A stretch of DNA of 60,992 nt. It comes from a virus. The stretch covers positions 1 through 60,992 of the IMG/VR virus record IMGVR_UViG_3300030202_000714, one strand, 5' to 3'. Positions 1 to 5,977 of the stretch are shown in pieces. The translations under genes were made by a program, and so were the position numbers. Below the pieces are notes generated by a model. That model saw only the letters and a program-made list of their open reading frames with translations, made no database searches and was not told the DNA's origin. The stretch's first letter is position 1; each line of letters starts with the position of its first letter.

Positions 1-351
1 GAAGTCATATTCCATATCAGACCATAAATGAGGTTCTATCCACACACCACCACCTGATGTCATTTCACTAATAGCTCTTTCAGACCATTCAGCGTAGTCT
101 TCATACTGATAACCATCTTGTGATACATAAGGTCTCTCATCATGAGTACACCAGTATATATCATAGCTATCAGCTGTTGATTCACTGTATATTTTTAGTA
201 TATGGTTCTTATCACACCAGTCAGTTGTATTATCTAGGTTTCCGCCATATTCTGATTCGATGTACTCGATCAGCCAATTAGCATCTGGTTCCTGCATTAT
301 TCCATCGCTCTCAAGAGCTTCAATAATAATATCATCTGTTAGTAACTCCAT
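1..351 (-). CDS. Hypothetical acidic protein, 3' part missing at window edge
   Basis: An open frame of 117 codons starts at the ATG at 351 and runs off the left edge, so the C-terminus is not visible. The start shares a TAATG overlap with the stop of the gene at 351-590, implying translational coupling. The protein is acidic and rich in Asp, Glu, Trp and Tyr (for example LIEYIESEYGG and DWCDKNH near residues 27-50). No family is recognised. It belongs to the leftward block of small genes, which is typical of early phage proteins acting on the host. That role is inference from position only. Confidence 0.7.
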   Translation of the reverse strand, partial: MELLTDDIIIEALESDGIMQEPDANWLIEYIESEYGGNLDNTTDWCDKNHILKIYSESTADSYDIYWCTHDERPYVSQDGYQYEDYAEWSERAISEMTSGGGVWIEPHLWSDMEYDF

Positions 352-590
352 TATTCTTCGATTAGCATTCTGCCACCGTACATAATGTCTTTGGCTGTTA
401 CATCACTTGTATAAAGACCTGCGTAGGACAATAGGGCACTAACATCAGATACTGATAGTTCATGCCATAATACACTACTCATGAGTTTATACTTTAATCT
501 TTTAGCGCTGTCATATTTTCTAGCACTAGCTTGCAACTCTGATTTAAGACTAGGTTGCAGTAAGTCGTAGATTGATTTCATTTTACTCAT
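351..590 (-). CDS. Hypothetical 79-residue protein
   Basis: A small, helix-rich protein with a basic middle (SARKYDSAKRLKYKL). No known domain is recognised. The start lies about 30 nt downstream of a copy of the repeated promoter-like element (619-651), so it is probably the first gene of a short leftward unit that continues into the gene at 1-351 through a TAATG junction. Function unknown. Confidence 0.7.
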   Translation of the reverse strand: MSKMKSIYDLLQPSLKSELQASARKYDSAKRLKYKLMSSVLWHELSVSDVSALLSYAGLYTSDVTAKDIMYGGRMLIEE

Positions 591-653: not shown

Positions 654-700
654 AGGACGTGGCGGGAGTCGAACCCGCACCTTAGTACCGTAGCACGTCC
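654..700 (-). ncRNA. tRNA-like minihelix: acceptor stem plus T-arm only
   Basis: On the minus strand a perfect T-arm (GCGGG, loop TTCGACT, CCCGC; 662-678) is followed directly by CACGTCC (655-661) and an unpaired T (654). The only sequence matching the acceptor strand, GGACGTG, lies at 694-700, just 15 nt before the T-arm, so no D-arm or anticodon arm fits between. The spacer can form a 4-bp hairpin with a UACG loop, but that uses the last bases of the acceptor half. Upstream, 701-771 has further pairing potential (CCTCTC with GAGAGG, and ACCA/TGGT around GGGA/TCCC), so a larger structured RNA is possible. No CCA end is encoded. It sits in the gap between two leftward genes. It could be a tRNA remnant or a tRNA mimic. 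Confidence 0.5.
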
Positions 701-775
701 ATAACCTCTCTTGTTTTCATCACAAGGCCTACTGTGTATTCCCGAGAGGCGCCACCATGGGATTCCCTGGTTAGC

Positions 776-1018
776 TTAGTTATATATTTTATTAGACTTA
801 CATACCATCCACTCGCAGTTAGTAGGCTTATGTCCTTTTAAAGTCATTAAGTCTTCATAGTCTTCGCATTGTAGATCTGCTCGTCTAATATTGTACATGA
901 ATACTCTGCCTAATTCAAAGTCTAGTATCCATAGATAATTTCTTGCGTCAGAGTTTTCTATTACCTCTAATCTTTCTTCGTCTTGCATTTCATGCCATTT
1001 CTTTACTGAATCACTCAT
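776..1018 (-). CDS. Hypothetical 80-residue protein
   Basis: Small acidic protein with no recognised family. The C-terminal half has two Cys residues separated by 20 residues (LQCEDYEDL and NCEWMVCKSN). Its start overlaps the 3' end of the gene at 1011-1229 by 8 bp, so the two are probably co-transcribed. The structured RNA region follows its stop codon. Function unknown. Confidence 0.65.
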   Translation of the reverse strand: MSDSVKKWHEMQDEERLEVIENSDARNYLWILDFELGRVFMYNIRRADLQCEDYEDLMTLKGHKPTNCEWMVCKSNKIYN

Positions 1019-3316: not shown

Positions 3317-3349
3317 TATTATCCAAGTTGTATTGTATTGTATTTGTAA
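3317..3349 (-). promoter_or_regulatory. Promoter-like element, copy 5
   Basis: Minus strand: TTACAAA, TACAATACAA and CTTGGATAATA at exactly the spacing of the other copies. It precedes the gene at 3052-3279 by 37 nt. The matching bases are conserved although the surrounding sequence differs, which supports selection on the DNA. Confidence 0.6.
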
Positions 3350-4417: not shown

Positions 4418-5977
4418 ATGGAATTTAATAACCCAAGTCAATTGGTCAAGCATCTTAACTTTGGTGATGATGCTAATGACAAAATAATGAGTGGTGTAGA
4501 TCAACTAGCTAAAGCTGTTAAATCTACACTAGGTGCTTCTGGTAAATGCGTTATATATGAAGATGCAACAGGAAGACCGGTGATTACAAAAGATGGTGTA
4601 ACCGTTGCGGAAAGCGTAGTCTTATATGATCCGGTCGAAAATATAGGTGCAACACTTATAAAGGAAGCAGCTAAAAACACGGTGAAAGAAGCTGGAGACG
4701 GTACCACAACGGCTATCGTCTTAGCTGAATCACTACTAAAAGAAGTAAATAACAGCGATAATGTACGAGAAATTAAAGAAGGTATTAACTCAGGACTTGA
4801 AAAAGTTAATAAATACCTTTCTAAACACTCCAAAGCAGTATCTGGCGATAATCTTAAATACGTATCAACAATAAGTTGTAACAATGATAGTGAATTAGGT
4901 GGTATTATAGCCGATGCTTACACGAAAGTAGGTAAAGATGGTGTAGTATTGATGGAGGAAAGTGAGACGGATGAAACTTATACAGACATCGTTGAAGGTG
5001 TACAGTTAGAAAATGGCTTAACATCGCCATATTTTGCTACAGACACTGAAAAACAAAAATGTGAATTAGAAAATCCGCTAATTTTAATAGTTTCTAGTGA
5101 AATTCCTAGTGTTAGGAAGATACAAAACATACTAGAACATGTAATTAAGAATAATAGATCGCTTTTAATAGTGGCTACTGTTGCTCAGCAGGTAAAATCT
5201 GCGCTTTTAATGAATAAAGTTAAAGGTAATATAAAAGTAAACATTATAAATCCACCAGGATTTGGCCCAACTAAGCGAGATACTATAGATGATTTAGCTA
5301 TTTTAACAGGGGCTAAGGTAATAAATGAAGAATTAGGTGACGATTTGGATCTAATTCAACCAGATTGTCTTGGTGAAGCTAAATTTTCAATAACTGACGA
5401 TAAAAATACAGTTATAACTACTTATAATGTACAAGAAGACATAGAGGGTAGGGTAAAAGAGGTTAAAAAGCTCATAAAAAATGAAAAAAATGGCTTTTTA
5501 AGAAAAAAATTAGAAAATAGACTTGCTATGTTATGCGGTTCTGTTGGTATTATACGTGTTGGTGCTAATTCTAAGGTAGAATTAAAAGAAAAGAAGGATA
5601 GAGTTGAAGATGCAATATACGCAGTTAAAGCCGCTTTGCAAGAAGGTATTGTCCCAGGTGGCGGTATCGCTCTTTTAAATGCTGCAAATAACATAAAGTT
5701 TGATAATATTGGGGAGAATATACTAGCTACAGCAATTCAAGCACCATTTAAAACCATTATGGCAAATGCTGGTATTGAAAACTACGATACGCCTAAAGAT
5801 TTAGGTGTTGGGTACAATGTAATTTCCGGTAAACTAGTTGATATGGTTGACTCTGGTATCGTAGACCCCGTCTTAGTTACAAAGACAGCACTAAAAAATG
5901 CAGTTAGTGTTGCAACTACTATATTTTCTGCAGATTGTGTAATTAATAATATAAGAGTAGAAAATGCGAGCAGTTAG
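4418..5977 (+). CDS. groEL: Phage-encoded chaperonin GroEL (Hsp60)
   Basis: A 519-residue group I chaperonin subunit, which forms ATP-driven double rings that refold proteins in the cytoplasm. Visible hallmarks are the nucleotide site TKDGVTVAE (57-65) and GDGTTTA (93-99, Asp94 matching the catalytic Asp87 of E. coli), PGGGIALL near 415 in the intermediate domain, and VDPVLVTKTALKNAVSVATT near the end. Family members have about 545 residues. Here the GGM-repeat tail is missing and there is a short N-terminal extension (NNPSQLVKHLNF). No Shine-Dalgarno sequence. The 3' end overlaps the groES-like gene by 14 bp. In bacteria the order is groES-groEL, so this operon is reversed. It probably folds capsid, tail or other phage proteins. 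The family is certain; the clients are inference. Confidence 0.95.
   Translation: MEFNNPSQLVKHLNFGDDANDKIMSGVDQLAKAVKSTLGASGKCVIYEDATGRPVITKDGVTVAESVVLYDPVENIGATLIKEAAKNTVKEAGDGTTTAIVLAESLLKEVNNSDNVREIKEGINSGLEKVNKYLSKHSKAVSGDNLKYVSTISCNNDSELGGIIADAYTKVGKDGVVLMEESETDETYTDIVEGVQLENGLTSPYFATDTEKQKCELENPLILIVSSEIPSVRKIQNILEHVIKNNRSLLIVATVAQQVKSALLMNKVKGNIKVNIINPPGFGPTKRDTIDDLAILTGAKVINEELGDDLDLIQPDCLGEAKFSITDDKNTVITTYNVQEDIEGRVKEVKKLIKNEKNGFLRKKLENRLAMLCGSVGIIRVGANSKVELKEKKDRVEDAIYAVKAALQEGIVPGGGIALLNAANNIKFDNIGENILATAIQAPFKTIMANAGIENYDTPKDLGVGYNVISGKLVDMVDSGIVDPVLVTKTALKNAVSVATTIFSADCVINNIRVENASS

Follow-up and report, generated by a model that had tools for sequence, protein, structure and literature searches.

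The window analyzed here, a complete virus record of 60,992 nucleotides, harbors on its minus strand (655–700) a tRNA-like minihelix without anticodon, and the existence of this structure as a genuine RNA-type element is nearly certain. Sequence comparisons place it in a family of anticodon-less tRNA-like RNAs (classes A to D) of marine flavobacterial-type podovirus relatives, which is apparently widespread among phages and undescribed. The window copy comprises 46 nt plus the discriminator position (U654) and consists of a 7-bp acceptor, a 15-nt linker and a T-arm, as documented by its sequence and its homologues. The 5' acceptor strand GGACGTG (694–700) pairs with the 3' strand CACGTCC (655–661), and six of these seven pairs covary. 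The linker CTACGGTACTAAGGT (679–693) contains an invariant GG resembling G18-G19 of the D-loop, and the T-arm GCGGG-TTCGACT-CCCGC (662–678) exhibits a consensus T-loop with invariant TTCGA; all five of its pairs are kept in the homologues, two with double-sided changes. U654 corresponds to N73 and is followed by the trailer start CAA (together 651–654); N73-CTAA is the prevailing reading in the homologues and in genuine tRNA-Met genes of the phages. The first-pass annotation had described a perfect acceptor and T-arm separated by a 15-nt spacer, and all parts are indeed present on the minus strand between 654 and 700, with the seven acceptor and five T-stem pairs intact. The CTACGGTACTAARGT linker between paired 7-nt arms, together with the T-arm, assigns the copy to class A and sets it apart from class D with its AYGGTTART linker and 6-bp acceptor. 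The 7-bp acceptor and the 5-bp T-arm with its TTCRANN loop are features of the tRNA family RF00005, whose cloverleaf with an anticodon arm is absent here, the spacer being 15 nt long.

A descriptor scan of the whole window returned the 654–700 copy as its single match. The expectation for spacers of 8–40 nt is 0.01 matches per order-1 (dinucleotide-frequency) resampling of the window, which rules out a chance origin, and none of the matches in resampled sequences had a fully Watson-Crick acceptor. The class-A covariance model scores the window copy, which was among its building sequences, with 78.9 bits. Standard annotation overlooks the element: ARAGORN reports neither a tRNA gene nor a tmRNA in the window, and an Rfam scan yields no gathering-level match at the minihelix and no RF00005. 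Relaxed Rfam thresholds retrieve only a match to the tmRNA T-arm and the mascRNA family at 12.8 bits. The thermodynamics of the minus-strand region is weak as evidence (z = -1.7) and would not by itself reveal the pairing upstream of the minihelix. A plus-strand RNA was rejected, given its weaker fold (z = -0.3) and a T-loop consensus that is legible on the minus strand only. A permuted tmRNA or split tRNA was likewise dismissed, since the parts stand in normal order.

Homologues of class A were collected from viral contigs with a pattern that combined the linker with a portion of the T-arm and left both acceptor strands free (17 stretches); together with other fetches they provided an alignment of 11 distinct sequences. 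All 12 pairs are kept in this alignment, and eight of them show double-sided changes, which amount to 22 cells versus 5.9 in shuffled alignments (0/500 shuffles). Pair conservation and double-sided changes document that both class-A stems are selected as RNA. The CTACGGTACTAA of the linker is invariant in the 11 sequences, a conservation for which the search pattern is largely responsible; L196, which was retrieved with another pattern, keeps CTACGGTACTAA too. The covariation in relatives that had been proposed as a check is hence present, both in the 11 distinct sequences of class A and in 10 distinct sequences of class D. The descriptor scan detected no such minihelix in the elemovirus or in the Manatee Spring phage, the model gave no confident class-A match in those parts of two Cellulophaga phages to which it was applied, and DNA searches of named phages returned nothing beyond the T-arms of ordinary tRNAs. 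In the Manatee Spring relative (MW202828; L242:520-640), ARAGORN leaves uncalled an odd tRNA-Leu-like element whose spacer measures 76 nt.

The window encodes a terminase, a portal protein, an endolysin and a ribonucleotide reductase as well as GroEL (4418–5977, recognized by sequence). The nearest relatives of the terminase are found in podoviruses of Flavobacterium, Cellulophaga, Tenacibaculum and Maribacter and in an environmental genome (63%), and further homologues occur in an elemovirus. These terminase relatives suggest that the host is probably a marine flavobacterium. The minihelix is located 75 nt past the stop codon of a co-directional gene of 80 aa (776–1018, minus strand), whose homologues in three other contigs are 90, 88 and 85% identical, and 64 nt ahead of a second co-directional gene of 79 aa (351–590, minus strand) with homologues of 81–86% (L122, L129, L134) and 48–58% (L125, L131). 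The equivalent spacer between both genes houses such elements in L122, L125, L129, L131, L134, L137, L138 and L168, and its content differs: class B in L122 and L168, classes B and A in L129 and class A in the window. The promoter-like element that had been noticed beside the minihelix was confirmed. It is situated between minihelix and next gene (615–650, core 619–642), and its sequence AAATACNANNNNNGTYGGATAATA has four window matches with at most two mismatches versus 0.01 expected, all on the minus strand (619–642, 1454–1477, 2304–2327, 3317–3340). The same promoter-like sequence stands between element and next gene in the syntenic relatives.

The pairing potential that had been suspected upstream of the minihelix resides in two domains. 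The first, M1 (705–749, minus strand), is composed of an outer helix (CCTCTC/GAGAGG), an inner helix and a conserved TGAAAACAA. In eight sequences, 98.9% of the cells in the two helices are paired, and 6 of 11 pairs show double-sided changes (0/500 shuffles). M1 is separated from the minihelix by only 4 nt. The second domain is the hairpin M4 GCTAACCAGGGAATCCCATGGTGGC (751–775, minus strand), which directly follows the stop codon 776–778. Its core ACCAGGGWWTCCCATGGT recurs in relatives, namely inside the class-B third arms of L139, L163, L164, L167 and L202, and for 46 of 89 class-B third arms, homologues occur beyond the class A and B elements. These recurrences are indicative of hairpins that behave as exchangeable modules.

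Four classes can be distinguished. Class A is defined by its 15-nt CTACGGTACTAARGT linker, and class B (90 stretches) by the succession of GGGCGTG, AAATGGTTAG, a third arm of variable length, AAC, GCAGG TTCGANT CCTGC, CACGTCC, A and CTAA. Class C exhibits AACTAGG or a similar sequence and GACTACYGACGRGTA ahead of the T-arm, and class D has a 6–7-bp acceptor, a 9–11-nt linker such as ATGGTTAAT and a T-arm. Classes A, B and D have in common the D-loop-like GG and the T-loop TTCRA, although the latter was a requirement of the scan. The trailer N73-CTAA follows 62 of the 90 class-B elements, a sample that is biased by the search pattern, and 26 of 30 genuine tRNA-Met genes of the same phages. Several of the contigs surveyed are fragments. 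All elements examined in this respect are situated between genes and run in the direction of their neighbours, and some lie 0–8 nt past a stop codon or a few nucleotides ahead of the next ATG. Several classes commonly coexist in one phage; examples are G014 (D, B, C) and G009 (C, A, tRNA-Met, B).

The acceptor of class B usually contains G3:U70, and its third arm carries the interchangeable hairpin modules. Bacterial alanine identity includes A73, G2-C71 and G3:U70 (PMC9976931). The combination of G3:U70 and A73 is present in most class-B copies, but their acceptors were mostly fixed by the search pattern and therefore do not represent independent evidence. Outside this pattern, three acceptor variants retain G3:U70 (GGGAGTG/CACTTCC, GGGCGCG/CGCGTCC, GGGTGTG/CACATCC) but five other listed entries have lost it, so alanylation of class B is no more than a lead. 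The window copy with its A3:U70 and U73 is devoid of the alanine identity given in PMC9976931.

In the alignment of class D, which comprises 10 distinct sequences, 11 of 11 pairs are preserved, nine of them with double-sided changes, and a search with the linker and half of the T-arm, from which the acceptor was left out, recovered 63 stretches. A 6-bp acceptor is formed by 41 of 42 distinct sequences versus 3.5 with shuffled partners, and 19 different hexamers occur among them. The distribution of these sequences indicates that class D reaches beyond the flavobacterial-type podovirus group, and many matches sit in phages with large tRNA arrays. The class-D model found no match in five bacterial genomes, and a single scan of genome contigs detected true elements only in two Aliivibrio MAG contigs (L288, L289; classes B and D), which probably represent mis-binned phage. 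Four phage contigs with 56% G+C (L308, L315, L319, L332) harbor a class-D element of the type GCGGGG..CCCCGC located 6 nt past a stop codon.

Class-D elements are often positioned directly behind a complete Rfam match to GOLLD (RF02032). This association was investigated without bias towards the minihelix by searching with the conserved end of the Rfam GOLLD match, which retrieved 19 phage loci (L297, L305, L307, L310, L317, L322, L328, L330, L333, L339, L341, L344, L349–L355). All 19 possess a tRNA-like element about 8–13 nt behind the conserved GOLLD end, 17 of them a minihelix and two an aberrant full cloverleaf (L350, L352), which shows that minihelix and tRNA occupy the same slot. The order in the window, with M4 and M1 followed after 4 nt by the minihelix, parallels this succession of GOLLD and minihelix in the 19 phages; the window itself has no Rfam match to GOLLD. 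Since the Rfam model is complete at this end and the 3' region of GOLLD is universally conserved, the minihelix should be placed 3' of this conserved region. A pseudo-tRNA has been reported within the GOLLD gene (PMC6582537) and tRNAs in the GOLLD linker (PMC12286853), and our literature search found no report of a minihelix without anticodon arm at GOLLD.

Among the known systems, the mascRNA/MEN-beta tRNA-like element (RF01684) shares the location directly 3' of a structured non-coding RNA and is the only short-spacer tRNA-like family suggested by relaxed Rfam scoring. The 12.8 bits of the window copy are far below the gathering threshold of 42.5, and mascRNA differs by its length of about 56–61 nt, its residual D and anticodon arms and its occurrence in vertebrate nuclei, whereas the phage minihelices of 40–47 nt are restricted to acceptor and T-arm. 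The tRNA-like domain of tmRNA (RF00023) likewise combines an acceptor, a D-loop without D-stem and a T-arm, and class B resembles it further, as its third arm takes the position of P2 and its copies often combine G3:U70 with A73. However, the phage elements have no tag reading frame and no pseudoknot body. A tmRNA identity was rejected for the window copy, because only its 17-nt T-arm matches RF00023 and ARAGORN predicts no tmRNA. The 3' tRNA-like structures of plant viruses such as TYMV are comparable in their tRNA mimicry in viral RNA beside upstream structured domains, but they have a pseudoknot-closed acceptor at genome 3' ends, in contrast to the plain 7-bp acceptor inside DNA-phage operons. 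Finally, armless mitochondrial tRNAs (PMC7609411) are also tRNAs reduced through arm loss; they retain the anticodon at the expense of the D- and/or T-arm, whereas the phage minihelix has lost the D-stem and the anticodon arm and kept the T-arm.

Starting from the observed structure, selection, placement, homologues, tRNA-type trailer, structured-RNA association and cloverleaf interchange, we propose that the minihelix is a compact pre-tRNA mimic cut by RNase P and RNase Z, thereby freeing the upstream structured RNA or mRNA, a reading from sequence features to which we give an even chance. The tRNA would be reduced to a coaxial acceptor/T-arm stack and a D-loop-like strand, whose GG may close the elbow with the T-loop. 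The minihelix would be co-transcribed with the preceding gene at the 3' side of the structured RNA (751–775 and 705–749), host RNase P would cut ahead of GGACGTG and host RNase Z past U73. The presumable purpose is a defined 3' end for the upstream RNA and its separation from the next unit with its own promoter-like element, and the released 47-nt minihelix could receive CCA. Processing is supported by the tRNA-type trailer N73-CTAA and by the placement like that of genuine tRNA genes. For bacterial RNase P, a T-arm/acceptor minihelix suffices as a minimal substrate, and it is RNase P that generates the 3' end of MALAT1 at mascRNA; as in that system, the window copy lies directly 3' of a structured RNA, the covarying M1 (705–749). 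By textbook rules, class D is an imperfect RNase P substrate, since in many of its members only six acceptor pairs form and the seventh position is unpaired, or N66 is missing. Neither the strict 15-nt linker of class A nor the third arms of class B, which are elaborate and exchangeable, are explained by plain punctuation.

The first-pass annotation had considered a tRNA relic, a decoy for tRNA-processing enzymes or a larger structured RNA. The larger RNA is borne out by the domains at 705–775 and, elsewhere, by GOLLD; the relic is rejected because covariation demonstrates selection on both stems. Contact with tRNA-processing enzymes is likely, yet the minihelix would act as a cutting signal rather than as a decoy. 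A present-day relic or an attP copy of a host tRNA 3' end is scarcely credible: T-arm and 3' acceptor represent the usual attP core and the class-D slot holds a degenerate cloverleaf in two phages, but covariation in classes A and D refutes this reading, several copies occur per genome and no integrase was found among the window proteins scanned, a subset of the ORFs. The shared slot makes descent from a tRNA plausible, and an evolutionary origin of this kind is likely. Excised minihelices could also serve as free decoys that titrate a tRNA-binding host factor or a defence nuclease; without an anticodon they would be immune to anticodon nucleases, and class B with G3:U70 and A73 might be charged with alanine and compete with tmRNA or tRNA-Ala. 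The fact that phages carry several copies belonging to different classes and the retention of G3:U70 in three acceptor variants beyond the search pattern fit this improbable scenario, which is at odds with the missing alanine identity of the window copy, the non-independence of most class-B acceptors and the wide variation of acceptors between phages (19 class-D hexamers), unlike a mimic of one tRNA.

A rather unlikely alternative to processing is a docking domain, in which the attached minihelix would bring the structured RNA via its tRNA-like elbow to ribosomes, EF-Tu, synthetases or other tRNA-binding proteins. It would account for the strict 15-nt linker of class A and for the tight coupling to upstream domains (4 nt in the window, about 8–13 nt behind GOLLD), and the reported ribosome binding of GOLLD in pull-downs, as cited in PMC12286853, agrees with it. 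The tRNA-type trailer and the tRNA-gene-like placement suggest processing instead, and a recognized structured RNA is missing ahead of many copies of classes B and D. It is highly improbable that the element is a natural RNA scaffold, i.e., a tRNA-like shell that protects exchangeable cargo hairpins in the third arm of class B, with A and D as cargo-free shells. The 46 of 89 third arms with homologues elsewhere, the same hairpins with different closing stems and the M4 core as cargo in five other phages point in this direction; the window copy carries no cargo, and the idea is derived from architecture alone. Processing may also be part of a wider arrangement, which we propose tentatively: phages would own a modular RNA kit, in which the minihelix shell terminates, protects or bears interchangeable structured RNA modules, among them ornate RNAs of the GOLLD type, while host tRNA enzymes process the shell and class B is possibly alanylated. 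If so, stable non-coding RNAs would be produced during infection.

Minihelices composed of acceptor and T-arm serve as laboratory tools and have been postulated as ancestors of tRNA. We found no description of this family in the open-licence literature, where an existing account could have been missed, and a natural gene family of minihelices would be new as far as this search could find. Its link to GOLLD provides a testable handle on the origin of ornate phage RNA ends, and the exchange of modules suggests that a set of phage RNA domains may still await description. In the class-B third arms and neighbouring spacers of L122–L241, recurring small structured modules (such as CACCTAACAGTAAATCGACGCCTTGGCTTCCTTGAGGTATCAGTTGTACAAAGCCAGTCGTAGTGACAGGTG and GACCGAGACGTGGTAACAGTA...GAATCCAACCGAGTCATGGT) swap places, nest in the loops of one another and change their closing stems, and one recurring module (AAGCTAAGAACAG/CTGTGACGCTT) resembles a kink-turn.
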